A program made the position numbers and the translations under genes. Shown here in pieces: positions 3,892-46,603 of a DNA stretch of 64,000 nt. Each line of letters begins with the position of its first letter. The stretch's first letter is position 1. Under the pieces are notes generated by a model. It was not told the DNA's origin. It saw only the letters and a list, made by a program, of their open reading frames with translations, and did no database searches. Source of the DNA: Fimbriimonadales bacterium (lineage in GTDB: Bacteria > Armatimonadota > Fimbriimonadia > Fimbriimonadales > Fimbriimonadaceae); the NCBI GenBank assembly GCA_026418055.1, contig JAOACB010000002.1, forward strand, positions 62,001-126,000, in the 5' to 3' direction.

Positions 3892-4857
3892 TTGCAGGTG
3901 TCCTCTTCCGCTTCGCTCGCCTCCCGCCTGCTTCGCATCGCCGGCGCCTTGGTGCATCTCTCGCTGTGCGCCCTGGCGCTGCTGGTGGGCACCGCTCTGG
4001 GCTATTTCGCCCAAGGCCCCTTGGGAACGGCGGCTGTGGTCCGCGTGCTGCGAAGCCGAGACCCCTCCACGGCCTTCGAGGATCGATCCGAGATCACCCT
4101 GCTCGTCCTCGGATGCGACGAGGACCGATCCGCGGGCGGAGCGCGGGTTCTGAGGAATCAAGCGCGAAGCGACATGATCCTCGTCGCCAAGGTCTTTTTC
4201 AAGGACAGGAAGGTGGAGGGCGTGTCGATCCCGAGGGATCTGGAAGTGCAGCTTCCCGGTTACCGCCCGCAGAAGATCAACGCCTACCATGCGATCGGCG
4301 GCAAGGAGCTGGCGAAGCGGGCCGTCGAGCACGTCCTGGGAGTGCCGATCGACCGTGTGCTCGTGTTGGACTACCGCGCCTTCCAGGACATGGTGGACCT
4401 GGTGGGAGGCGTACGGATCAACGTGGAGAAGAGAATGCGTTGGAGGGACCGGGCGGGAGACTTGAACATCGACCTCCAGCCGGGAGAGCAGCTGTTGAGC
4501 GGCTACCAAGCGATGGGCTACGTCCGGTTCCGGCACAGCGATTCGGACTTCCTGAGGCAGGGTCGGCAGAGGCAGTTTCTGTTGGCTTTCAAGGAAGCCG
4601 CCCTGCGTGATCCGCTGAAGCTGAATGCCCTCGCGGAGAAAGCCGTCGAGGCCACGGGCGGCGGACTGACGGCGGAGGAGATCCTGGCCATGGCGATGTT
4701 CGCGCGCAACCTATCGAAGGAGGACGTGCGCTTGGGTGCGGTGCCGGTTCTCCCCGGCAGGGGAACGAACCTCAGGCTCGACGTGCAAGAGTTGCCGAAA
4801 GTCCTGGAGGATCACCGCTTGCTAACGAGCTCGCACCGCAGGGAGAACCAGCCTTGA
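3892..4857 (+). CDS. LytR-CpsA-Psr (LCP) family cell-wall glycopolymer ligase
   Basis: This 321-residue protein has an N-terminal membrane helix (about residues 12-38) and an extracytoplasmic LCP domain. Family landmarks are LLVLGCDED, the Arg/Asp pair in NQARSDMILVA, VSIPRDLEVQLPG, INAYHAIGG, LVGGVRINVEK and YVRFRHSDSDFLRQGRQRQF. LCP enzymes attach glycopolymers to peptidoglycan or related acceptors from lipid-linked donors. The TTG at 3892 gives the longest sensible protein; the GTG at 3898 is also possible given the CATAAT just upstream. The stop overlaps the next start by TTGA, so it is coupled to the pseudopilin-like gene. Confidence 0.88.
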   Translation: MQVSSSASLASRLLRIAGALVHLSLCALALLVGTALGYFAQGPLGTAAVVRVLRSRDPSTAFEDRSEITLLVLGCDEDRSAGGARVLRNQARSDMILVAKVFFKDRKVEGVSIPRDLEVQLPGYRPQKINAYHAIGGKELAKRAVEHVLGVPIDRVLVLDYRAFQDMVDLVGGVRINVEKRMRWRDRAGDLNIDLQPGEQLLSGYQAMGYVRFRHSDSDFLRQGRQRQFLLAFKEAALRDPLKLNALAEKAVEATGGGLTAEEILAMAMFARNLSKEDVRLGAVPVLPGRGTNLRLDVQELPKVLEDHRLLTSSHRRENQP

Positions 4858-5711
4858 ACACACCTTTCGACGAGCCGCGGCAGGAAGCCGCACCCGAGGA
4901 GGCGGTTGAGGAAAGGCAAGGCAGCGCCTACCTCACCAAGAAGGATCTGCGTGCGATCGGCGTCGTTCTAGCCGTTCTGTTCGTGCTCATGACGCCGATC
5001 TACATCGTGCTGAAGCGCCAGGCGCAGAAGGCCGAGTGCGCGATGAACTGCAAGTCGATCCAGGGGGCCATGCTGCTGTACATGGAGGTGTGGGACAACC
5101 AGTTTCCTCCCGCCTACGCGAGCGGTCCGAGGGGCGAGGTGCTGCTCTTCGACGGCAAGCCGTTCACTTGGGCTTCCACCATCAACGAGTACATGAGCAA
5201 ACGCGCGAAGTTCCGGTGCCCGGCGGCCTCGGCGGAGGAACTGGTGATCGCCGCCCATCCCTACGAGTCGGACCAGCAGGTCCCGATGAGCTACGGCATG
5301 TACCTGCCCCGATCCACCGCCGCCCTGTCGTCGATCAGCGATCCTGCCCGATCCGTTCTGATCGCGGAAACGTCGAACAGAGGGGCACGGGGCACCTACG
5401 ATCCTCATCCCTTGCTCGGCCTGGATGGCAAGCCCGCGCCGTACGACGGCTTCGCCGTGGGCTGGGACACGGGCAATCGCATCGATTGGTACAACACCAC
5501 CCAGTCTTCGGACATGCCGAAAGCCGTCACTCGGCTCGCGTTCTACAACACCGCCTCGGGAGACTTTCAGGCGCGCGGAGCCTCGAGGCACGACGGCGGA
5601 ATCCACGTCCTGTTCGTCGATGGCCACATCGAGACGGTCCCGCCGACGGCAGCAGCCGCGCGCTACCTGGACGTCGGCGGCGACCTCACGGGGCTTTGGT
5701 CGACGCGCTGA
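4854..5711 (+). CDS. Pseudopilin-like membrane-anchored protein lacking a prepilin cleavage motif
   Basis: This 285-residue protein has an acidic N-terminal stretch, one membrane helix (about residues 33-54) and a large outer domain. The outer domain resembles Armatimonadota/Planctomycete pseudopilins of the DUF1559 style: CAMNCKSIQGAMLLYMEVWDNQFPPAY after the helix and HVLFVDGHIETVP near the end. Unlike the other three pilin-like proteins here it has no GFTLxE leader, so it is probably a permanent type II membrane protein and not a processed pilin. It starts at a TTG sharing TTGA with the LCP gene. Function is unknown; a role with the LCP enzyme is inferred only from coupling. Confidence 0.72.
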   Translation: MNTPFDEPRQEAAPEEAVEERQGSAYLTKKDLRAIGVVLAVLFVLMTPIYIVLKRQAQKAECAMNCKSIQGAMLLYMEVWDNQFPPAYASGPRGEVLLFDGKPFTWASTINEYMSKRAKFRCPAASAEELVIAAHPYESDQQVPMSYGMYLPRSTAALSSISDPARSVLIAETSNRGARGTYDPHPLLGLDGKPAPYDGFAVGWDTGNRIDWYNTTQSSDMPKAVTRLAFYNTASGDFQARGASRHDGGIHVLFVDGHIETVPPTAAAARYLDVGGDLTGLWSTR

Positions 5712-5715
5712 AGCC

Positions 5716-6612
5716 TCAGAGCGGACGGGTCGAAGCCAAGCCGTCGAGGGTGTCGGCGAGGCGATCCTCCTCCTCAGCCAACTCGAACCCTCCGACCAGG
5801 TACCACGCCTCCCGGAGCTCGACGCTCGTTCCCGGTTCCAGCGTTGTCAGCGGTCCCAAGCTCTCCACCTCCAGCATGTCCTCTCGGGTGAAGGTCTCGA
5901 AGTTGCAACCGAAGTCCGGGTAGCGCGCGCCTTGCTCGAAGGGGAAACGCTTCAGGAACAGGGCACCGTGGTTCGCGTAGGCGGCGTACCCTTGCGAGAC
6001 CTGCGCGCCAACCTTCTGCGGCGGCAAGGCGTCCTGTCGCAGGCGGATCACCCGGCGACCCCATGTCCATCGAGGATCCTGCATGTTGGTGTAGCCCCAC
6101 AGAACGAGCGGCCGGGCAGGCAGGAAGTCCTCGCTGTGCGGAACGAACGGCGCTTGGGGAAACAGGCAGACCCCGCCGGGCCCCATCACGGTCAGACACC
6201 ACGGCGCGAGCTCCACGGCCTTCGATCCTCGGTTGTGGATGACGTGGAGCAATCCGAAACCGTCCAGCTCTGGCCTGGCGGTCAGGCGAATCTCTTTCTG
6301 GATGCCCCAGCGGTCGGGGTCGGAGCGGAAGACGGCGGCATCGCCGTCCTGCGCGACTTCCACCGGCTCGTTCTCCGGCACATAGGTTCTTTCCCAATCC
6401 TCCGGAGCGATCCAAAGGCGATGGCCGCCGTACGAGCGATACTCCGATCCTCCTTTGAGCCCCTTGGTCTCGGGAGCGACATGCATGAAGTTCGGGCCGC
6501 CGACGAAACCGTAGCGAATGACCCTGGGGCCGACGTCGAGCGTCACGAACGCCTCCGTGTTTCCGGAAACGAGTCTGGCGCAACGCCAGCCTTCGAAAAG
6601 AACCTCCTCCAT
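5716..6612 (-). CDS. Galactose-mutarotase-like protein (DUF4380-like)
   Basis: This 298-residue protein looks like a beta-sandwich of the galactose mutarotase superfamily: TLDVGPRVIRYGF near the N-terminus, SYGGHRLWIAPEDWERTY, LLHVIHNRGSKAVELAPW in the middle and LREAWYLVGGFELAEEE near the end. It resembles DUF4380 proteins, whose activity is unknown. No signal peptide is seen. I chose the ATG at 6612 (MEEVLFEGW) since a TACAAT element ends 7 bases upstream; an in-frame ATG at 6621 lies within that element. It converges with the pseudopilin-like gene, with 4 bases between stops. Confidence 0.65.
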   Translation of the reverse strand: MEEVLFEGWRCARLVSGNTEAFVTLDVGPRVIRYGFVGGPNFMHVAPETKGLKGGSEYRSYGGHRLWIAPEDWERTYVPENEPVEVAQDGDAAVFRSDPDRWGIQKEIRLTARPELDGFGLLHVIHNRGSKAVELAPWCLTVMGPGGVCLFPQAPFVPHSEDFLPARPLVLWGYTNMQDPRWTWGRRVIRLRQDALPPQKVGAQVSQGYAAYANHGALFLKRFPFEQGARYPDFGCNFETFTREDMLEVESLGPLTTLEPGTSVELREAWYLVGGFELAEEEDRLADTLDGLASTRPL

Positions 6613-6619
6613 GGGCACC

Positions 6620-6625
6620 ATTGTA
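6620..6625 (-). promoter_or_regulatory. -10-like element TACAAT before the mutarotase-like gene
   Basis: On the minus strand TACAAT lies 7 bases before the ATG at 6612. It overlaps an upstream in-frame ATG, which argues for the shorter start. The gene also follows the barrel-protein gene by only about 40 bases, so this may be an internal promoter. Confidence 0.4.
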
Positions 6626-6649
6626 GCCCGCGGCAGTCGGCCTCGGCTT

Positions 6650-9600
6650 TCAGAAGCGCAACTGGTAATCCAAGCGGATGGTCCAGTTGTCGCGACCGCC
6701 TCGCTCGAAGTTGTGCTCGTAGCTGACATTCCCCACGAAGACGCTGAGCGCCTGGTTGGGGCCGGGGCGCTGGTCGAACTTCAGGTGGTATCGGTGCGCT
6801 GTCTGTCGGCGCCCATTCACGTCGGCCTCCTCCAGCCCATAGAACAGCTCGATCGGCGAGCCGCTCTTCTGCCGGAGGGTGACGTGCAGGCCACCCACGC
6901 GGGTCATGGCTCGGGTCTGCGCGTTGTACAGCTCCTCGAAGCTGCCGCCGACGGAGGTGTCGTCGTTGGTTCTCACGTTCAGCTTCCAGCGCTCCGAGCG
7001 CGCCGCTTGGATGACCGAGCCCAGCAATGCGTCCCCACGGGTCACCTCTGGGTTCTGAACCGTTTGGTGGCTGAGCTCCACCCCCTTCATCGGTCGGGCC
7101 GTCAGGCTGATGTTCTGAATCTGCACGTCTTCCGCTGTCGCGGGAAGCGAGCGCTCCTTCAGGTACAAGGAGCCGACGAGCCAGCGCTTGGGATCCTGAT
7201 CCGTGGAGAACCCAATCGAGCGATCGACGGCCCTGTAGCCGGAGCTGTGCATCTGGCTGCGATACTGCAGAGCGAACGTGTTCGAGCCCCACTTGCCGTC
7301 CATCGCGAACAGGCGGTTCTCCCGCAGCCAGACCGTGCGATCGGATGCGGTGTCGAAACCGAACGACATCTTCACATCCTGGAGAGGACCGAGGCGCATC
7401 GGCCTGGCCGTGGACAGCTGGACGTTGCTGGTGGCTTGGACGCGGCCTTCGTCCCACGCGCTGGCTTGGTAAGAGGCCGCTCCGATCGCCACGTTCCCCA
7501 GTTGCGCGCCGCTCGCGCCCGGGCTGGAGGCCAGCAACAGGTTCTCTTTGGTCACGCCAAGCTCGCCGACCGCTTGCCGATCGTAGCCGTAGCTCAGGCG
7601 AAGGCCGTTGCCGAGATCCCACCAAAAGCCCACGTTCCGCTTCCGCTCGTCCCGCTCGCTGCCACGCCGATCCACGGCGACTTCGGCGACCTGCACGCCC
7701 GTGCGGGGCCCGAGGGCGGTGCGAACCGTGTGCGACGAGACCTTTTCGTTCGTACCGTCATCGAACCTCGTGCGAGCCTGCTCCGTCGCGACCTCCGTCC
7801 TAGCATCGAGCCGGGCTTGGTAGGCCACGATCTCCTTCTCGTAGCCGATCAGTCCGGCGTTGAGGTAGTCCGTCGTTTCCCGGAGGTAGCGCACCACGCC
7901 GAACCTTCCAAGGTCCTTGACCAGGGTTAAGCGCTCCACCGCCGCCCGGAACAGGTCCGCCGAATGGAGCTCATCCTGGTGGCGGGTGTTGCTCTTGAGA
8001 TAGTCGAGCTTCGTCTTGGCGTCGGGGTTGTAGGCCAGAAACAGGTTGCGAACGTCCCGCCTTTGATCGAGCGCCTCGGAGGACGCGCTCAAATCGAACA
8101 GCTCCACCGACAGGCTGGGTAGGAGCTTCCATTTCAGCTGGAAGTCGCGCTCGTTGAAGCCTTGCAGCGAGGCCAACAGCTCCCTTTCCGAGTCGATTAG
8201 GGCCCTAGCCGCGCCGAACTTCTCGTCCACGCTCCTCGAGCCATAAGAGATCTCCACACCCTTGTCCTGGTAGCTCAGACGGGCTCGCGCGAGCCCGGCC
8301 CCGGAGAGGTCGATGCTCGTCGTGTCCACGTTCGCTCGGCGCTCGCCCCCGAGGTTCAGCGCGAGGGACACGTCCTCACGGCGCAACCCCGCAACGGTGC
8401 CGAGGCGCTCGCGCTCGAAGGTCATCAGGTTGCCGATCTCGGAGAAGCGGTCTCCCAAGTTCTGGCGCCGGATGCTCAGGTTCATCCTAGGGTTGGAGAC
8501 TCCGATCGATTGGAGCCAGCCTCCATCCCGCTGGCCATCGAGCCGTACCTCGTCGAACCGCACCGTCCAGCCCTTTCCCGGCTGCCAGGTGAGCCGAGTC
8601 AGCTCGCGGCTCAGGCGGTCGCCCCTGGCGAACCAACCAATCTCGTCCGGCTTGACCGCGAGCCCCGGCTGATACGCGTCTGCGATGCGTCTCACGGCGT
8701 CTTCCACCTCGCTCTGAGCGAGAGACCCGAGCCGCCCGAAGCGGGCCGTGGCGCCGATCTGCGCGTGGCTCAGGGACCACGTCTTGCCCGCTGCGTCCAA
8801 AGTCGTCGATCGGTACTCTCCCTTGCCCGACGCCACGAGCGATTGGCGGAACTGCAGCGGTTGCTGGGTGCCTCCGAAGACGGTGGCATCCAAGGCCAGG
8901 TTCCTTCGCCGCAGGCCCTGCTCTCGGGCCCACTGCGCCTTCTCTGGCTCGAAGAGGCTGTTGAAGCGGGTAAAGGCGGCATCGATCTCCTGCTCTTGCA
9001 GGCTGAAACGGACCTTGCCGGCGTCGATCGCGATGGAGTCGCGTCTGATTCCCGCGCCCGTACCCGCGAAGTCTTCGATGAGGCTCTGTTGGTAGTCGAG
9101 CTTCGCCAGCCCCGCCCGCCAGGCTGCGGAGAACCGCTCCCTTTGGAGGCCCGCTTCCGCGGCCAACTGCTGACGGTCCTGCTCCGCCAAGTCTTGGAAC
9201 CTGCGGAACTTCGGGTCGATTCTCCTCGACTCGTAGCCCAGGGACAAGTCCTTCGATTGGAAACCGTAGGATGTCCACGTGAGCTTCCCGTCGTCGTTCC
9301 CCACCTGACGGAACGACTGCGAGACGGCGCCTGTTCCAAAACCGATATCCTTGAACGAGAAGCCGATGCGGGTCAGCCCACGCTCCTTCTGAAGCTGGGC
9401 CACCTGCTCGGCCGTGAACCCGGCATCCTGAAGGGCACCGAAGTGGCTGAAGGACTGCTCCACATCCTGGTAGTCCACCTCCAGGCTACCCTTGCCCCAT
9501 CCGAGCTTCAAGTTCTGCACTACGGCCTGCCCGGTCTCAGCGGGTGCGGTTGAGAGCCGTTCCTGCTGGAGCTCGGAGGCAGCGGCCGTCTTCCGCCGCT

Positions 9601-10162
9601 CCCCCACGATGAACGCCCCGCTCAGCGAGCCGCTGGAGCCGAACTTCAGCGCGTTGTTCCAGCCGTAGACGTTCGACGTGAACACCCCCGCCTGCGTCCG
9701 CTCGGTCAGGCCCATACCGAGCGTCAGGTTCATCGCGCCCGGCACCAAAGAGTAGCGGAAAGCCCCGAGGCCCGCGAACTGCTGCGCCGGAGGGCGATAG
9801 TTCGGTTCGTACCGATACGATGCCCTCAGAACCGAGCCGGGCTTCACGGCCCGCATCAGGTAAACGACTCCGGCAGGATAGTCGATTTGGTAGTCCGTTC
9901 CGCGCTCCAGGGCTTGGCCGTTGAGCGTCACGCTCTCCGAACCGGGAAGCACCCCTCCTCGCAGGAGCGGAACCGACGGAAGGCTGCCCTCCACCACGAT
10001 GACGTCGATGCTGGGCTTGCCGCCAAGAACCGGTTTGGCGTCGGCAGCCGGGCTCTGCAACTGGTTGAAGGACGACAGGCCGGGCACCTCCTGGCCGGAC
10101 CCCATCCCTGGCACCGTCAGGAGGCTGAGCGCGATCACCCAGCTACCCGTGCGCTTCGTCAT
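6650..10162 (-). CDS. Large outer-membrane beta-barrel protein with internal helical repeats
   Basis: This is a 1,170-residue secreted protein I do not recognise as a named family. It has a signal peptide (MTKRTGSWVIALSLLT then a small-residue cleavage region near GMGSGQ), a short N-terminal beta domain with ERGTDYQIDYPAGVVYL, then many alternating amphipathic strands, ending in WTIRLDYQLRF. The terminal Phe is the classical sorting signal for barrel assembly by BamA. Between strands about residues 235-685 lies a repeated unit (separate entry). The ATG at 10162 was preferred to the in-frame ATG at 10174 because a TACAAT element overlaps the latter. It may be a large surface barrel; transport or structural roles cannot be told apart. 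Confidence 0.75.
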   Translation of the reverse strand: MTKRTGSWVIALSLLTVPGMGSGQEVPGLSSFNQLQSPAADAKPVLGGKPSIDVIVVEGSLPSVPLLRGGVLPGSESVTLNGQALERGTDYQIDYPAGVVYLMRAVKPGSVLRASYRYEPNYRPPAQQFAGLGAFRYSLVPGAMNLTLGMGLTERTQAGVFTSNVYGWNNALKFGSSGSLSGAFIVGERRKTAAASELQQERLSTAPAETGQAVVQNLKLGWGKGSLEVDYQDVEQSFSHFGALQDAGFTAEQVAQLQKERGLTRIGFSFKDIGFGTGAVSQSFRQVGNDDGKLTWTSYGFQSKDLSLGYESRRIDPKFRRFQDLAEQDRQQLAAEAGLQRERFSAAWRAGLAKLDYQQSLIEDFAGTGAGIRRDSIAIDAGKVRFSLQEQEIDAAFTRFNSLFEPEKAQWAREQGLRRRNLALDATVFGGTQQPLQFRQSLVASGKGEYRSTTLDAAGKTWSLSHAQIGATARFGRLGSLAQSEVEDAVRRIADAYQPGLAVKPDEIGWFARGDRLSRELTRLTWQPGKGWTVRFDEVRLDGQRDGGWLQSIGVSNPRMNLSIRRQNLGDRFSEIGNLMTFERERLGTVAGLRREDVSLALNLGGERRANVDTTSIDLSGAGLARARLSYQDKGVEISYGSRSVDEKFGAARALIDSERELLASLQGFNERDFQLKWKLLPSLSVELFDLSASSEALDQRRDVRNLFLAYNPDAKTKLDYLKSNTRHQDELHSADLFRAAVERLTLVKDLGRFGVVRYLRETTDYLNAGLIGYEKEIVAYQARLDARTEVATEQARTRFDDGTNEKVSSHTVRTALGPRTGVQVAEVAVDRRGSERDERKRNVGFWWDLGNGLRLSYGYDRQAVGELGVTKENLLLASSPGASGAQLGNVAIGAASYQASAWDEGRVQATSNVQLSTARPMRLGPLQDVKMSFGFDTASDRTVWLRENRLFAMDGKWGSNTFALQYRSQMHSSGYRAVDRSIGFSTDQDPKRWLVGSLYLKERSLPATAEDVQIQNISLTARPMKGVELSHQTVQNPEVTRGDALLGSVIQAARSERWKLNVRTNDDTSVGGSFEELYNAQTRAMTRVGGLHVTLRQKSGSPIELFYGLEEADVNGRRQTAHRYHLKFDQRPGPNQALSVFVGNVSYEHNFERGGRDNWTIRLDYQLRF
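8126..9466 (-). repeat. Six-copy ~35-residue protein repeat within the barrel gene
   Basis: The encoded protein carries about six copies of a unit of the form [FR]xxFxxLxxxERxxLAxxxGLxREx, each placed between beta strands. Clear copies contain KFRRFQDLAEQDRQQLAAE (then AGLQRE), FTRFNSLFEPEKAQWAREQG (then LRRRNL), RFSEIGNLMTFERERLGTV (then AGLRRED) and KFGAARALIDSERELLASL (then QGFNERD). Two weaker copies contain HFGALQDAGFTAEQVAQLQK and RFGRLGSLAQSEVEDAVRRI. The unit predicts a charged helix followed by a turn back into a strand. I know of no described domain with this pattern. Confidence 0.7.
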
Positions 10163-10172
10163 CCCTCGCTTC

Positions 10173-10178
10173 ATTGTA
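10173..10178 (-). promoter_or_regulatory. -10-like element TACAAT before the barrel gene
   Basis: Minus-strand TACAAT lies 10 bases before the ATG at 10162 and overlaps an earlier in-frame ATG. The distance implies a leader of only a few bases. The 99 bases from here back to rqcH hold only a weak 7-base inverted repeat (10213-10219 with 10239-10245). Confidence 0.5.
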
Positions 10179-22327: not shown

Positions 22328-22996
22328 TCAATGAGCGGGCCGATCCCCAAAGATCGCCGTCCCCACCCGCACGTGGGTCGCTCCCTCTTGGATCGCCACG
22401 TCGAAGTCCGAGCTCATGCCCATGCTGAGCCACCTGCAACCGAAACGCTCTGCGAGCTTGCGAAGCCTTGCGAAGTACGGACGCATCGCCTCGGGCTCGC
22501 CGAGGTTCGGCCCGATGGTCATCAAGCCCCGGACACGAACTGACCTGCATTGTGAGGCCAAATCCCAGAACTCGTCAAGGTCCTCTGGCAAGACTCCTGC
22601 TTTTTGCGGCTCTTTCGCAACGTTCACTTCGATCAGAGCGTCGACGGGCTCGGTGAGCTTGGAAAGCTCCCGAAGCTGGCTCTCGGACTCGAGCGTGTGG
22701 ATCACCCGAAACGCGCTCGCGACCCTGCGCGCCTTGTTCGACTGGAGCTTGCCGATGAAGTGCCATTCGATGTCCGAGGGCAGTCGGGCGATCTTGGGGA
22801 GCGCCTCCTGGAAGCGGCTCTCGCCGAACACCCGGCACCCCGCCTCGAAGGCCTCCTGAATGCGCTCGATCGGCACCGATTTCGTGACGGCGACCAAAGT
22901 GATCTCCTCAGGAGCCCTTCCTACAGAGCGCGCCGCCTCCGCGATTCGCTCGCGGACCCGTTCAAAGGCTACGAAAACCTCGGAGCTTCGGCTCAG
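22328..22996 (-). CDS. yggS: YggS/PROSC family PLP homeostasis protein, probable CTG start
   Basis: This 222-residue TIM-barrel protein binds PLP and buffers vitamin B6 pools. Seen: ITLVAVTKSVP with the PLP lysine, VFGESRFQEALPKI, WHFIGKLQSNKAR, IEVNVAKEPQKAG and LSMGMSSDFDVAIQEGATHVRVG. No ATG, GTG or TTG exists in frame at a sensible position. A CTG at 22996 forms CTGA with the upstream stop, and GGAGG lies exactly 6 bases before it, so CTG is the likely start; this gives a normal family length. It is coupled to the large secreted-protein gene and lies 25 bases before sepF. Confidence 0.88.
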   Translation of the reverse strand: MSRSSEVFVAFERVRERIAEAARSVGRAPEEITLVAVTKSVPIERIQEAFEAGCRVFGESRFQEALPKIARLPSDIEWHFIGKLQSNKARRVASAFRVIHTLESESQLRELSKLTEPVDALIEVNVAKEPQKAGVLPEDLDEFWDLASQCRSVRVRGLMTIGPNLGEPEAMRPYFARLRKLAERFGCRWLSMGMSSDFDVAIQEGATHVRVGTAIFGDRPAH

Positions 22997-25521
22997 GGTC
23001 GGCCTCCGTCCAACACCATGGTCTGCTCGGGCTCCAAGCGAACATCCATCATGCCGCTGGCGCCCTGCCATCGAACGGGAAAGCTGCCTCCTCCGATCCG
23101 ATCCACGACCGTCTTCGGTCGGAGCGGGAAGCCCGAGCGCTGCAGCTGGAGCGTGGCCGTCACGGCCTCGGAGGCGGGGTTGAACACGGTGAGGAATCGC
23201 CCGCCGAAGCGCTCGAGCCACAGCCGGGCGTCGCTGGATCGCGCGAACGTGATGGGCTCCCAACCCGCGTTGCAGAGCGCGGCGATCGTCGGAACGCGGT
23301 TTCGGAACAGCTCCCTGTCTCGCTCCACCAGATCAGGCCGATCCCAGTACACGCGCGTCGCGGCGTCCGGGCTGAACATGCTGGGAAGGATGCCGTAGAA
23401 GGCGCATCGATCCACGTACCGGCGCATCCATGCGGCCGGAAAGGCGTCGAAGTCCGTGTTCAGCAACAAGAGGTACGGCTTCGAGCCGCTGAACACGCGT
23501 CGGAACAGCATCACGCTGTCGGAATCCGGCTCGTACCGACCTTCCCAAGCCCAGTTCGTCTCCACCCCCATCACGTCCAACAGCCTGCAGAACAAAGGGT
23601 GCGCGAGCGGCACGGCGTTGGCGAACAAGAGGTAGCCCCTCCGCCGCAAATCTGCCGAGACGCTGGCGGCGAAGTCGTAGGAGTGGTACCAAAGGGGAAC
23701 CACCGCTGAACCGTCTCGATCGAACGTCGCCGGGAAGGGGCAGAGCCTCCGGTGGTCGGGGCTGTAGTCCAGACGTTCGCCCCAGCCCTCGAGGGAATCG
23801 AGGTACTGGCCGTCCAATCCCCTGTCGCCCATCCGCGGGGTTGGATGCCACCGCTCGGCGTCCTGAGGGTTGTAGTTGAGCCACGCTTTGGTAGGGTCGT
23901 CGGCGGATCCGCCGAGGCGCGGACTGGCGTTCAGCAGGAAGACCGCGCCGTCGCACCATGGCTCGGATCGAAACTCCACTTGGAGCCGCCCATCCTTGTC
24001 CCGCGCGGCGCACCGAAGCGCAGCCTTTGCCTGCGCCGCGAGGGGACCGCTACCTCTGGCGAGCCTCCCGAGCTGTTCGATCGCGCTGTCGTAGGTTCGA
24101 GGAAGCGCAGGCTCCATGGGCATCCAGAACGACATCGGCTCGGTGTAGCGGAAGCTCAGCACCCCCAGGCCGTCGTCGGCCTCCACGGAGTTGTCGCCCT
24201 CGTGGAACGCGACGCCAAAGTCCTGCACCCCCCGCACCTCGGACGGGCTCTTGAAGGGCATCCAGATTCCCGTGCGATCGACGCGTCGGTTTCTGAGCTC
24301 TGGGTGCAGCCCGTAGAACCAGTCCGTTGCCGCCCGAAAGCCCCAAGAGGCCCGTTCTCCGGAAAGGCGGCCACAGTCGAAGCGCAGCGAGACACGGCGT
24401 CCGGGCGGGAACGCGACATCCCATGCGAGCGCGAGGACTCTCGCTTTCGGATTGAAGAACAGTCGGAAGGCCACCGGAGACTCGAAGCCTTCGGCAAGCA
24501 GGTGGGCGCCTCTCTCCCCTTGGACGCAAGTGTAAGGATAGCGGGAGATCAGACCGTTCGAGCCGTAGGGCACGGGAACGGCGTTCGTGGCCTCGGTCCC
24601 CTCCGCAACGAAGCGAGACGCGCGCGGATGATCCCACCAGACCGGCCTCCGCTCCACGACCGGCAGGAGGAAGTAGAGCGTCCCGACGAGGTCGCCCTGC
24701 GCTCGGTTGGTGCACACGGCCTCACCCCTCCAGGCCGATCTTCCCGGTGTCAGCTCCGCGGCCAAGCTCAGCCGGCCATCGCTCGACCCCGCGCGCAACA
24801 GGAACCCCCTGCCAGACCGCGCGATGCGTCCAGCGAGCGCCTCCATCCGCCTTCCTCCGTTCTCGAACGGCCTCCAGTAGAAGCCGCCCGGAGTGGTGGC
24901 CTTCTGCCCTGCGACCTCCACGAGCAGTCCAGCGCCGTCGAATCCCAGGGACAGGCCGGCACCCGAGGCGCGCAAAGCCGCCTTGCCTGCGGCGCCAACG
25001 TGCCACTCGGTTCCCTGAAAGTCGAACAGATCGTTGTCCGAGAGCTCGCGAGCGCTGAAGTCGTCGAACCACACGGTTCCGGCGTGTCTGCGGAACAGGG
25101 CGTAGACGGTGACCGAGCGGAACGGTTTGCCCGAGGCCACGACCACCCTTCGCCTTTGCCAGCCGTGGGTGCCCACGTCGAACGGCGCGTTCGTGCCCCA
25201 AAGGGGGCTGCCGTCTTGGTGGATGGCGTCCACATAGATGCTGTAGTCCGCGTCGGGCGCGCCGCCCACTCCCGAAGCCTTGCTCCAGCCAGAGACCTCG
25301 ACCGGCTTGGCGACCGTTTGGTCCAGCAACAGAGTCACGGAGGCTCCGAACACCCGGCCGTCGCGATCCGACGAGCACCGGATGCTTTGGGTGCCGCTCC
25401 GCGTCACTTCGCGATCGACGACGAAACCGCTTTCGAACGGCAACCACGAGGAGCCTTGCTCGAAGCCTGGATCCGGCAGAAGCTCCCCGCTGGTGAACAG
25501 GAGCGCGAGCAACGGCAGCAT
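22993..25521 (-). CDS. Large secreted carbohydrate-active-like protein of unknown function
   Basis: This 842-residue protein has a hydrophobic N-terminus (MLPLLALLFTSGELLPDPG) consistent with secretion. The first part reads like a carbohydrate-binding jelly roll (LLPDPGFEQGSSWLPF, VWFDDFSARELSD), a pattern common in bacterial CBM-like domains. The central and C-terminal parts include DGQYLDSLEGWGERLDY and VVPLWYHSYDF, reminiscent of glycoside-hydrolase-like barrels, then a beta domain ending MMDVRLEPEQTMVLDG. I cannot assign a family or substrate. A TATGCT element ends 6 bases before the ATG. It overlaps yggS by 4 bases, an unexpected operon partner. Confidence 0.6.
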   Translation of the reverse strand: MLPLLALLFTSGELLPDPGFEQGSSWLPFESGFVVDREVTRSGTQSIRCSSDRDGRVFGASVTLLLDQTVAKPVEVSGWSKASGVGGAPDADYSIYVDAIHQDGSPLWGTNAPFDVGTHGWQRRRVVVASGKPFRSVTVYALFRRHAGTVWFDDFSARELSDNDLFDFQGTEWHVGAAGKAALRASGAGLSLGFDGAGLLVEVAGQKATTPGGFYWRPFENGGRRMEALAGRIARSGRGFLLRAGSSDGRLSLAAELTPGRSAWRGEAVCTNRAQGDLVGTLYFLLPVVERRPVWWDHPRASRFVAEGTEATNAVPVPYGSNGLISRYPYTCVQGERGAHLLAEGFESPVAFRLFFNPKARVLALAWDVAFPPGRRVSLRFDCGRLSGERASWGFRAATDWFYGLHPELRNRRVDRTGIWMPFKSPSEVRGVQDFGVAFHEGDNSVEADDGLGVLSFRYTEPMSFWMPMEPALPRTYDSAIEQLGRLARGSGPLAAQAKAALRCAARDKDGRLQVEFRSEPWCDGAVFLLNASPRLGGSADDPTKAWLNYNPQDAERWHPTPRMGDRGLDGQYLDSLEGWGERLDYSPDHRRLCPFPATFDRDGSAVVPLWYHSYDFAASVSADLRRRGYLLFANAVPLAHPLFCRLLDVMGVETNWAWEGRYEPDSDSVMLFRRVFSGSKPYLLLLNTDFDAFPAAWMRRYVDRCAFYGILPSMFSPDAATRVYWDRPDLVERDRELFRNRVPTIAALCNAGWEPITFARSSDARLWLERFGGRFLTVFNPASEAVTATLQLQRSGFPLRPKTVVDRIGGGSFPVRWQGASGMMDVRLEPEQTMVLDGGRP
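23003..23007 (-). promoter_or_regulatory. Ribosome-binding site GGAGG deciding the CTG start of yggS
   Basis: Minus-strand GGAGG is followed by a 6-base spacer (CCGACC) and CTG at 22996. It lies in the last codons of the upstream gene. The spacing is optimal and no conventional start codon competes nearby. Confidence 0.65.
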
Positions 25522-25548: not shown

Positions 25549-28500
25549 CTACGGAGCATCCGAGGCCTCTGCGAGCGCGGCTACGTTCACGGGCACGATG
25601 GTCGACACGCCGTCGTGCCCCTGCATGGTCACACCGATCCAGTTGTCCGCAGCCAGGATCGTCACATGGTTGTGCGTGATCAGGATGAACTGGGTGCTGT
25701 CCTGAAGCTCGCGCAGAAGATCAATGAACCGCTCCACGTTCCTCCCGTCCAGGGGAGCGTCGATTTCGTCCAGAACCACGATCGGGCTCGGCTTGACCTT
25801 CAGCAGCGCGAACAGGAACGCCGCCGCGCACAGCGCGCGCTCTCCGCCGGACAGCAGCTCCAGCCGCTGGCGCTTCTTCCCCGGCAACGTGACCTCGATG
25901 TCGACGCCCGTCTCCAAGAGGTTTCCCGGGGCCGTCAACCTCAGGCACCCCTCGCCTCCGCTGAAGAGCTTGAGGAAGGTCTCGGCGAAGGCGGCCTCCA
26001 GTCGCTCGAAGGTTGCCGCGAACCGATCCTGAGTGAGTCGGTCTAGCTCGCGAATGCCGGATTCGATCTGGCGGATCCCATCCTCGATGTCGGCAACCTG
26101 AGCACCGAGATCCTCGGCCCGCGCCGTCAACCGATCGAAGGCCTCGATCGCCCCCAGGTTGACGTCCCCCATGGCCCGAAGCTCGCGGCGCAGCCTAAAG
26201 ACGAGGCTCGGCGCATCCTCCGGAACTTCGACTCCCTGACCCATAGCGATTGCCTCGTCCTCCGTGAGCGAGTAGTCCTCGAGGAGCCGTTGCAGCGCCG
26301 CGGCCCTCCTTCCCTCCCAGCGCGCCCTGGCCAGCTCGGAATGGTGCGCGCCCTCCGCACCAGCCTGCGCGCCTTCCCGGGCCGACCTCGCCGCCTCGCG
26401 CAACCCTTCAGCCTCCTCCAGAAGCTTCTGCCGGCGAGCCGAGGTTTCGGCGAGCTCAATTTGGACTCTCTCCGCCTCCGCCAGAGCGGCCTCCTTGGCC
26501 TCGAGAGCCTTGCTCCGCTCCTCGAGAGCCTTGTCCCGCTCGGGCCCGATCGCATCGAAGCGCCTCTCGCGGGCCAGCTGGCTGTCGGTGAGCGCCTCCA
26601 CCCTCCGCTTGGCCACCCGAAGACGCTCCTTGGCTTCGTCGATCCTCATCGCCGCGTCGCGAAGCAACCTTTGAGCGGCCTCCGCGTCGGCAGCCTTGGC
26701 CGCCAGGGAGGCTACCGCCTCGTCGCGCCGCCTCTCCAGTTCCTCGAGGTCGACCGGCTCGGGAAGCTCGGACGGCGCGGACCGCAGGCGCTCGGCCTCT
26801 CGGACAAGCCTCTCACGCTCCCGCTCGGCCGAGTGCATCTCCGAAGCCAATTGGTCTAGAAACGACTTCGCCTCGCGCCGCTCCTCCAGCCCACCCTCGA
26901 GTTCTCGTTGGAGCTCGGAGATCCTTTCCCGAACGCTTTCGGCTTTCGCTCTCACGGCGGCCATCGCGTTCTGGATCTCGGACTCTTGCCTAGCGAGGCG
27001 CTCCAAGTTGCGCAACGTGTCCGCCAGCTCCGCCTTCCTTTGAACCATGCCGAACGACGACCTCGCCGCCGTCCCGCCGGTCACCGCTCCGCTGCTGTGC
27101 ACCACCTCCCCGTCCAGCGTCACGAGCCTGCTCCAGCCGCTGGTCCGCGCCAGCTTCAGGGCGTCATCCAGCGTCTCCACAACGAGAATGCGGCCCAACA
27201 GCGAATCCACCACCGGGCGCAGCTCCGGATCGCACCGGACGAGCTCCGAGGCCCTGCCCAACACCCCTGGGTGTTTGGCGAGGCGCATCAGTTCGGCCGA
27301 CGGCGAAACAGCCCTCACGAGGGACAGAGGCTGAAAGGTGACTCGTCCGGCCCGATGGGCCTTCAACCATTCGATCGCGCGCTTGGCTTCGGCCTCGGAC
27401 GGTACGATCAGGTCGTTCGCGGCTCCACCGAGCGCGGTATCGATCGCCGTCGCATACCTCTTCTCGACTTCGACTGCCTCTGCCACCGGCCGGAACGCCT
27501 TCGGCAGGTGGCCGGCCTCCGAGGCGAGCAACACCGCGCGGGTCCCCTGTTGCAACCCCTCGTGGCTGTCGATCGTTGCCTCGATGCCGCGCCTGCGGCC
27601 CTCCAGCGCGGCTTGTTCAGCCAGCAAGTTCCGAAGTTTCGCGGCCTCGCGGTCTTCCTCCTTGGCGAGCTGCCCTAGCTCGTGGCGCAGGCGCTGGATC
27701 TCATGCTCCAACTGCCGGGCTTCGTCGGCCATTTGCTGGTGGCGCGATCTGGCTTCCTCGACCCCGGCGGCCAATTCCGGCAAGGTGGCATCGATGCCGG
27801 CCACTTCGCGATCAAGCTCGCGCAGCCTCTCCTTGCGATGCCGGATCTCAGCCAGCAGCTTCTGCCGCTGGGCGTTCCTCCGCCGGCCCTCCTCCAGCTC
27901 CCTCTCTAACCCCGCCAAAAGGGACTGCAGACGGCTCGTCTCGCCGTCCACGCCGGCGAGCTCAGCCTGCAAGGATCGGAGGGCCTCGTTCTCCCGCTCC
28001 ATCGCCTCGCCCGCCAGTTCCAACTCTTGGCGCGCTTCCGCGATCCGTTCCTGCTGGGCGTCCGCCTCTCCCTGCAGACTGGCCTCCAGCTCCTCCAAGC
28101 TCTGCAGCCGCTGGTCGCAGAGCCTGATCGCAGCCTCGGCCCGCTCTGCGGAGGTGGAAGCCGCCTGCGCTCGCTGGCGCAACCGCTCGGCACGCTCCTC
28201 CAGCTCGCGGACCGCCTTGGCTTTCCGGTCGGAGGCTTCCTCGAGTTCGGCTGCTCGCCTTGCTTCAGATTCCGCCAGCTTCAGCGCCTTGGATCGGGTC
28301 TCCTCCAGACCCCTGATCTCGTTCGTTGCGACGGCCAGCTCTCGGGCGAGCAGGCCGCACTCGACCTGCCTCAGACTCTCCAACAGCGCCTTGTACCTTC
28401 GAGCGGCCTCCGCCTCGGCCCTCAGAGGCTCCCTCTGACTCTCGATCTCGCGCAGGATGTCCCTGGTTCTGGAAAGGTGCTCTTGGGCCGAAGCCAAGCG

Positions 28501-29037
28501 GCGCTGAGACTCCGTCTTCCTCGTTCGATACCTCTGCACGCCAGCGGCCTCGTCGATCCAAGCCCGCCGCTCCTCCGGCGAGGCTGCCAAAGCTTGGTCG
28601 ATCTCCTTCTGGCCCACGATGGCGTAGCCCGCTCTCCCCAGTCCGCTGTCTGCGAACAAGTCGAGCAGGTCCTTCAGGCGGCATGGCCGCCGATTGATCA
28701 GGTATTCCGACTGGCCGGCTCGATCCAGGCGTCGCGTGACGGCAACCTCGGGCGTCGCCACTGGCAAGGCTCCGTCCTCGTTGTCGAACAGCAGCGTGAC
28801 TTCGCAGAACCCCACCGGCCTGCGCTTCGAGGACCCGCTGAAGATCACGTCCTGGCTGGTTTGGGCTCGCAGCTGGCGCGCGTTCGCCTCGCCCAGGCAC
28901 CACAGGATCGCGTCGACAAGGTTCGACTTGCCGGAACCGTTCGGGCCAACGATGGCGATGAGGTTCCCCGAAAGGTCGATGTCGGTCCGGTCTGCGAAGG
29001 TCTTGAACCCGAAAATGCGGACGCGTTTGAGGCGCAT
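25549..29037 (-). CDS. smc: Chromosome segregation protein SMC
   Basis: This 1,162-residue ATPase organises chromosomes with ScpA and ScpB. It has the N-terminal Walker A (GPNGSGKS, residues 31-38), two long coiled coils (about 165-500 and 680-1000) and a hinge between them (around RPVAEAVEVEKRYATAIDTA and GGAANDLIVPSEAEAKRAIEWL). The C-terminal ABC signature LLSGGERAL and Walker B PIVVLDEIDAPLDG follow. The ATG at 29037 begins MRLKRVRIFGFKTFAD, the family start. A TATAAT element lies 23 bases upstream. Scp genes are not in the window. Confidence 0.96.
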   Translation of the reverse strand: MRLKRVRIFGFKTFADRTDIDLSGNLIAIVGPNGSGKSNLVDAILWCLGEANARQLRAQTSQDVIFSGSSKRRPVGFCEVTLLFDNEDGALPVATPEVAVTRRLDRAGQSEYLINRRPCRLKDLLDLFADSGLGRAGYAIVGQKEIDQALAASPEERRAWIDEAAGVQRYRTRKTESQRRLASAQEHLSRTRDILREIESQREPLRAEAEAARRYKALLESLRQVECGLLARELAVATNEIRGLEETRSKALKLAESEARRAAELEEASDRKAKAVRELEERAERLRQRAQAASTSAERAEAAIRLCDQRLQSLEELEASLQGEADAQQERIAEARQELELAGEAMERENEALRSLQAELAGVDGETSRLQSLLAGLERELEEGRRRNAQRQKLLAEIRHRKERLRELDREVAGIDATLPELAAGVEEARSRHQQMADEARQLEHEIQRLRHELGQLAKEEDREAAKLRNLLAEQAALEGRRRGIEATIDSHEGLQQGTRAVLLASEAGHLPKAFRPVAEAVEVEKRYATAIDTALGGAANDLIVPSEAEAKRAIEWLKAHRAGRVTFQPLSLVRAVSPSAELMRLAKHPGVLGRASELVRCDPELRPVVDSLLGRILVVETLDDALKLARTSGWSRLVTLDGEVVHSSGAVTGGTAARSSFGMVQRKAELADTLRNLERLARQESEIQNAMAAVRAKAESVRERISELQRELEGGLEERREAKSFLDQLASEMHSAERERERLVREAERLRSAPSELPEPVDLEELERRRDEAVASLAAKAADAEAAQRLLRDAAMRIDEAKERLRVAKRRVEALTDSQLARERRFDAIGPERDKALEERSKALEAKEAALAEAERVQIELAETSARRQKLLEEAEGLREAARSAREGAQAGAEGAHHSELARARWEGRRAAALQRLLEDYSLTEDEAIAMGQGVEVPEDAPSLVFRLRRELRAMGDVNLGAIEAFDRLTARAEDLGAQVADIEDGIRQIESGIRELDRLTQDRFAATFERLEAAFAETFLKLFSGGEGCLRLTAPGNLLETGVDIEVTLPGKKRQRLELLSGGERALCAAAFLFALLKVKPSPIVVLDEIDAPLDGRNVERFIDLLRELQDSTQFILITHNHVTILAADNWIGVTMQGHDGVSTIVPVNVAALAEASDAP

Positions 29038-43457: not shown

Positions 43458-43515
43458 GGGGCTCCTACCCCAACGCCCAGCAGCTCCGGATGGGCGGCAC
43501 AACGGAAGGAGTCCT

Positions 43516-46002
<2,487 letters not shown>

Positions 46003-46006
46003 GCGC

Positions 46007-46603
46007 TTGACCGACCGGGACCCGCCGGAAATTCCGCCGCAAGCTGTCATCATCGCGGGTCCAAACGGTTCCGGCAAGTCCACGTGCTCCGTGGCGTTGC
46101 TGACCCAGTTCGTGGAGTTCGTCAACGCCGACCTGATCGCGCAGGAGATCACAGGCCACACGCGGGCTGGGGCGGATATCGGAGCTGGCAGACTCTTCCT
46201 TCGCCAAGTAGAGCGCCTTGCGGGCCAGCGCCGCGACTTCGCCATCGAGACCACGCTCGCGACGCGGTCCCTTGCGGAGCGGGTGGTCGAGTGGAGGAGC
46301 ATCGGGTACCGCGTGCACCTCGTCTTCCTCTGGTTGCCGAGCGCCGAGCTTGCGGTCCAGCGCGTGGCGTTCCGCGTGCTCTCGGGCGGGCACGATGTGC
46401 CCGAAAGGACCATCCGCCGGCGATTCGCGGCTGGACTGCGGAATCTGTTCCGCATCTACATCCCGATCGTGGACACTTGGAGGGTGTACGATAATTCGCG
46501 CGGGGCGGATCCTGTGCTGATCGCCTCGGGCGTGCGCGGCGGCAGCGTCAAGGTCGCGGTCCCCGAGGCTTGGGAGTCCCTCGTGCAGGAGTACGGCTCG
46601 TGA
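46007..46603 (+). CDS. Zeta-toxin-like P-loop kinase
   Basis: This 198-residue protein has Walker A IIAGPNGSGKSTCSV (about residues 14-28), VNADLIAQEI, the substrate-site phrase FAIETTLATRSLAERV, and a C-terminal DTWRVYDNS. These are features of the zeta toxin/UDP-GlcNAc kinase family, whose toxins phosphorylate UDP-N-acetylglucosamine and block wall synthesis; chromosomal relatives may act on other substrates. A TTG at 46007 lies 4 bases after gyrA. It overlaps the small downstream gene by GTGA. No epsilon-type antitoxin precedes it. Confidence 0.82.
   Translation: MTDRDPPEIPPQAVIIAGPNGSGKSTCSVALLTQFVEFVNADLIAQEITGHTRAGADIGAGRLFLRQVERLAGQRRDFAIETTLATRSLAERVVEWRSIGYRVHLVFLWLPSAELAVQRVAFRVLSGGHDVPERTIRRRFAAGLRNLFRIYIPIVDTWRVYDNSRGADPVLIASGVRGGSVKVAVPEAWESLVQEYGS

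Follow-up and report, generated by a model that had tools for sequence, protein, structure and literature searches.

Tandem helix-plus-double-hairpin units in a single-copy Armatimonadota family of predicted giant outer-membrane proteins

A 64,000-nucleotide stretch of Fimbriimonadales DNA (the window) encodes a 1174-residue protein (ATG to TGA, 1174 codons plus stop; GC3 0.84) in which six homologous tandem units make up nearly half of the chain. Comparison of its relatives indicates with high confidence that the protein belongs to a single-copy Armatimonadota family built from a signal peptide, an N-terminal module, usually six units of about 77 residues, a C-terminal beta region and a conserved terminal phenylalanine. 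The explanation that we favour as a whole, with a probability of roughly 0.45, is that the protein may be a giant barrel enlarged by unit amplification and acting as an SprA-like conduit with a helical cap. No description of this protein family was found in the literature searched.

The repeat unit and its family

Each unit opens with a helical insert of 29 residues, after which come four beta strands forming two hairpins. The inserts follow the consensus [VI]D-x-x-F-x-R-F-x-x-L-x-x-x-E-R-x-x-L-x-x-E-x-G-L-x-R and lie at precursor residues 238–271, 319–347, 397–425, 475–527, 573–601 and 649–677 (window 9463–8144), with a few extra residues in insert 1 and a longer addition in insert 4. The initial annotation had proposed about six copies of a repeat at 8126–9466; six homologous units are indeed present in the open reading frame (ORF), with their inserts in that interval. 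It had described a 35-residue unit, and the motif does recur, but this stretch is the 29-residue helical front of a longer, roughly 77-residue unit. Across 108 full-length nonredundant members, successive units are spaced by a median of 77 residues (interquartile range 76–82, n = 525).

Homology of the units was assessed with leave-one-unit-out profiles made from the six full units of 28 relatives, in which the scored unit was absent from its own profile and each unit was compared with 560 shuffles. The left-out unit scores 10.9–68.5 bits in 28 of 28 members, and even the lowest real score of every unit lies above all 560 of its shuffles (20.2 versus a shuffle maximum of 12.1 for unit 1; 10.9 versus 9.2 for unit 6). 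A 29-residue profile applied to the query alone leaves inserts 1 and 5 weak, their scores being reached by 11 and 87 of 2,000 shuffles, as might be expected if the inserts were a chance low-complexity pattern and not a true repeat; we give that reading next to no credence, as the full-unit, family-wide procedure separates all real units from shuffles and the 77-residue period holds across the 108 members. Judged by sequence, the six units are homologous and the repeat is real, the family-wide full-unit test being decisive.

The gene is present in 106 of 113 Fimbriimonadia genomes (86 of the 88 of high quality) in essentially one copy per genome, most double matches being contig breaks or fragments, and the two genomes that clearly lack it (G068 and G069) both measure 1.5 Mb. 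Named relatives come from Fimbriimonadaceae and other Armatimonadota, and a family profile search finds relatives across much of the phylum, although the N-terminal module by itself probably accounts for many of the weakest matches. One 41% identical copy stands under the title 'Methanoregulaceae archaeon isolate SJ84' and is almost certainly mislabelled or mis-binned. No viral relatives of the protein were found; a structure search of BFVD returned tail fibres, porins and short matches of about 70–80 residues that probably concern the N-terminal module. Six units occur in 94 of 108 full-length relatives and five in 11, and full-length relatives from other families often have five. Trimmed lengths step with unit number, with medians of 1133 residues for six units and 1048 for five, and 838 residues in one relative with three (L157); units thus appear to be lost or gained roughly as wholes, with protein length following the unit count.

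The unit is confined to this family in the searches that we ran. No Pfam or NCBIfam family covers it, in keeping with the earlier suggestion that it matches no known domain, and Pfam gives no convincing match anywhere in the protein. A search of other proteins with the unit profile, as had been proposed, found nothing above noise outside the family in 21 genomes. Against the PDB, the 29-residue unit has no significant match and the 76-position unit retrieves engrailed and DLX homeodomains, the best (4.7e-5) being a chain with two homeodomain copies and single homeodomains reaching about 0.007–0.15. We attribute this likeness (window 8144–9463) to convergent evolution of a short helix-turn-helix pattern and rejected the homeodomain as a relative, because the unit is otherwise made of beta strands and the protein seems to be secreted.

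Predicted fold and placement of the helices

The protein combines several traits of outer-membrane beta-barrels: a Sec-type signal peptide recognized by eye (MKRGMTKRTGSWVIALSLLTVPGMGSGQ), hairpin-linked amphipathic predicted strands and an aromatic C-terminus. The terminal residue, F1174, is nearly invariant across the family, in agreement with the barrel-type phenylalanine first noted at the end of a protein of about 1,170 residues. AlphaFold2, run with a 48-sequence alignment, gave a model with a mean pLDDT of 85.7, exceeding 90 in most of the repeat region. The model consists almost wholly of beta structure of transmembrane type and places about 55 membrane-type strands of 7–16 residues after a small N-terminal beta module; its pTM of 0.50 leaves the overall shape, closure included, uncertain. 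Neither of the two outcomes named beforehand as contradicting the initial annotation, a known Pfam family over the unit or a predicted fold lacking a barrel, was encountered. A helix or helix-turn-helix follows strands 6, 10, 14, 18, 22 and 26, so that the regular helix between barrel strands proposed in the initial annotation recurs in the model after every fourth strand. With one helix per four strands, the helices always fall on the same face.

In a covariance analysis of 119 sequences (Neff 92) with distant pairs as background, 28 of 55 adjacent strand pairs exceed the 95th percentile of distant pairs; the pair that would close a barrel, the strand at mature residues 87–95 with the last strand, reaches only the 81st. 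Less favourable to a membrane barrel are a short hydrophobic zone in the strands, of about 6 residues, and a modest alternation of faces (1.41 versus 1.10 ± 0.11 in shuffled sequences). VIA-align retrieves mostly TonB receptors, porins and Tom40/VDAC at rmsd values of about 14–19 Å, mostly within residues 766–1147 of the mature model, and the C-terminal part is thus matched as a generic curved sheet. We consider it likely that the protein is a membrane barrel.

The helices are probably extracellular. Turns on the face opposite them are tight (median 2.1 residues) and adjoin hydrophobic and aromatic strand ends, and on the helix side the loops are longer and more variable and the strand ends rich in lysine and arginine. 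Counting strands back from the C-terminal phenylalanine places the helices on the side of the last loop, that is outside, in a count whose parity one miscounted strand would flip and with loop charges that differ from those of the strand ends.

Conservation is unevenly distributed along the chain. Helical inserts average 2.12 bits per position and the N-terminal module 2.21, compared with 1.69–1.70 for strands and 1.45–1.66 for loops, and of the 60 most conserved positions 22 fall in inserts, against 8.6 expected. The inserts had been interpreted as a periplasmic or surface decoration; being better conserved than the strands that they join, they look functional and are more plausibly a working part of the protein.

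Table 1 Features of the protein (positions in the window) and LptD_N-bearing ORFs in related genomes
Feature	Position	Strand	Basis
Whole gene, predicted outer-membrane giant beta-barrel protein, 1174 aa	6650–10174	minus	sequence and AlphaFold2
Signal peptide, residues 1–27	10094–10174	minus	sequence, judged by eye
Small N-terminal beta module, about residues 53–122	9809–10018	minus	TIGR04189 match of residues 74–108; AlphaFold2 strands
Unit 1, residues 236–318, helical insert with extra residues and strands S7–S10	9221–9469	minus	profiles, AlphaFold2
Unit 2, residues 319–396, helical insert and strands S11–S14	8987–9220	minus	profiles, AlphaFold2
Unit 3, residues 397–474, helical insert and strands S15–S18	8753–8986	minus	profiles, AlphaFold2
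Unit 4, residues 475–572, longer helical insert and strands S19–S22	8459–8752	minus	profiles, AlphaFold2
Unit 5, residues 573–648, helical insert and strands S23–S26	8231–8458	minus	profiles, AlphaFold2
Unit 6, residues 649–726, helical insert and strands from S27, strands diverged from those of other units	7997–8230	minus	profiles, AlphaFold2
C-terminal beta region up to the terminal Phe, about 26 predicted strands, without helical units	6653–7996	minus	AlphaFold2
LptD_N-bearing ORFs beside lptF/G	G012:C1:1477224, G061:C1:1209395, G063:C5:21087, G073:C2:117588, G112:C34:3368

Relation to SprA and LptD

SprA, the translocon of type 9 secretion (T9SS), is a 36-strand barrel capped on its extracellular side (PMC10994853). 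In NCBIfam, residues 74–108 of the protein match positions 603–637 of the SprA/Sov model TIGR04189 (E 3.9e-5, 21 bits, cut-off 200); the module is matched in 9 of 28 family members (best 1.9e-6), and none of 291 genomes of the phylum exceeds the model's cut-off. A Foldseek search of the PDB likewise gives as its best bacterial matches the SprA chains 8gl6_A (E 4.7e-7) and 8gl8_A (1.0e-6), followed by LptD. The SprA matches have rmsd values of at least 45 Å and TM scores below 0.17 (45.6 Å and 0.12 at E 4.7e-7), and therefore show no agreement in global fold. ApoB100 ranks as high as SprA, which suggests that matches of this kind may arise with any large amphipathic sheet. The VIA-align list lacks SprA, an absence that is uninformative.

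The resemblance to SprA is thus local. Like SprA and Sov, the protein is predicted to be a very large single-chain outer-membrane beta protein, and the small beta module is common to all of them. Unlike SprA, which has about 2,300 residues and has as its hallmarks 36 strands, an extracellular cap and a lateral opening, it has about 1,170 residues and about 55 strands in the model of pTM 0.50, with tandem helix-plus-double-hairpin units whose profile finds no match in PDB SprA chains. The shared module is a widespread N-terminal one (TIGR04189 positions about 593–690, residues about 74–122 here), with the helical units and barrel lying outside it. It also occurs on a smaller porin-like protein (Porin_4; L145 10189–12390) and is matched by the phage tail models NF052337, TIGR02217 and DUF2460, and is undiagnostic for that reason.

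A second set of proteins in the phylum also carries SprA-like modules. These are encoded by ORFs of about 860–1130 residues (L052–L063) whose module scores exceed that of the protein described here, and no helical units were found in them. In one, a 785-residue stretch (L058 4–2358) contains two modules of about 100 positions each and matches TIGR04189 at E 9.2e-20.

The module match and the Foldseek rank of SprA are what would speak for true membership in the T9SS translocon family. Such membership is nevertheless very improbable, given a score of 21 bits where the equivalog cut-off is 200, a match spanning only about 35 residues and a chain half as long as SprA. Two of the expected partners were likewise not found: the cargo domain TIGR04183 has no match at E 0.001 in this genome (across 21 genomes, scattered weak matches occur in 6 and exceed the cut-off in 3), and PorV (NF033709) has none in this genome and exceeds its cut-off in 0 of 21, with a Bacteroides control also falling below that cut-off.

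LptD was the other large barrel to be considered. Like LptD, the protein is predicted to be a large outer-membrane barrel, and LptD chains are among its best structure matches (7omm_A, E 3.3e-6). LpxC and LptF/G are encoded in all 21 genomes, yet the LptD barrel model PF04453 matches neither this protein nor anything in those genomes, which would leave room for a giant LptD-like exporter of envelope lipid (LPS). The silence of PF04453 is weak evidence, since controls from Bacteroides, Synechococcus and Thermus go unmatched as well, and the LptD_N/OstA domain (PF03968) has no match in the protein at E values up to 10. In five genomes, ORFs of 753–825 residues with an LptD_N match directly adjoin lptF/G (Table 1); they are likely to be the LptD of Armatimonadota, missed by the Pfam barrel model, and are better LptD candidates than the protein described here. 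An LPS-exporting role is accordingly improbable. As the module is undiagnostic, T9SS cargo and PorV were not found in this genome and better LptD candidates lie elsewhere, we class the protein as neither SprA nor LptD.

A putative conduit and the growth of barrels

The reading that we prefer, a unit-amplified barrel serving as a capped conduit, would work as follows. Each unit contributes a short helix or helix-turn-helix and two hairpins to a sheet of about 55 strands in the AlphaFold2 model, and an outer-membrane barrel would have been enlarged by amplification of this unit, with the helices arranged along the extracellular edge of the half that holds the repeats. By analogy with SprA, a capped pore, the barrel could form a very wide outer-membrane conduit for bulky cargo. 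The six conserved, charged helices in a row may fold over its mouth, where they would serve as a cap, a gate or a rim for docking. At the entrance, the N-terminal module may bind a partner or cargo. That the protein works as a helix-capped conduit or translocon, as this analogy suggests, is a tentative proposal. A stronger version is unlikely: in it, the protein would be one closed barrel with about 56 strands, more than the 36 of SprA, grown by amplification of the helix-plus-double-hairpin unit, capped by six extracellular helices and acting as the T9SS-independent translocon of an undescribed secretion route core to Armatimonadota.

Gene order offers no conserved secretion operon and no functional clue from neighbours. 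A LytR-CpsA-Psr protein followed by a DUF1559/prepilin-like protein (window 3892–5711) lies near the gene in 12–13 related loci, and a 337-residue ORF on the same strand (5716–6729), which has no Pfam match and overlaps the 3′ end of the gene, is conserved in 18. Further away in the window are an 842-residue, secreted-looking ORF without Pfam match (22993–25521) that adjoins smc (25549–29037), and a 996-residue ORF without Pfam match (43465–46455) whose unusual composition makes it look like a shadow ORF, antisense to a real plus-strand gene.

The main rival to a wide conduit is a structural or docking role. The protein could be a structural or porin-like outer-membrane protein, whether one big barrel, two fused barrels or an open sheet, that carries no bulky cargo and whose inserts dock to a surface polymer, an S-layer or neighbouring proteins and so stabilise the envelope. 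The gene is a single-copy core gene for which secretion partners were not found, the LytR-CpsA-Psr and prepilin-like genes are conserved nearby and the helices are conserved and charged, all of which a docking role accommodates. It fails to explain why both the SprA-like module and the inserts are so highly conserved, or why the barrel is so large, and we regard it as somewhat unlikely.

The repeat bears on how barrels grow. Outer-membrane barrels have been described as repeat proteins of hairpins or double hairpins (PMC6340704, citing Remmert et al. 2010) whose growth proceeds by amplification of the double hairpin, in an account that deals with barrels of 8–26 strands. The amplified helix-plus-double-hairpin units agree with the growth outlined there, as both involve tandem amplification of four strands; unlike the barrels of that model as presented, the protein described here carries a conserved helical insert, retains obvious homology among six copies and varies in copy number between lineages. 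The idea of double-hairpin growth has, according to the same account, so far been drawn for the most part from weak resemblance within small barrels, and the tandem units, in five or six copies depending on lineage, offer a readable natural example of the process. If the predicted strands form one barrel, its strand number would exceed that of SprA. As a near-universal, single-copy and unannotated envelope protein of a whole class, the protein probably has a basic role in the outer membrane of Armatimonadota.
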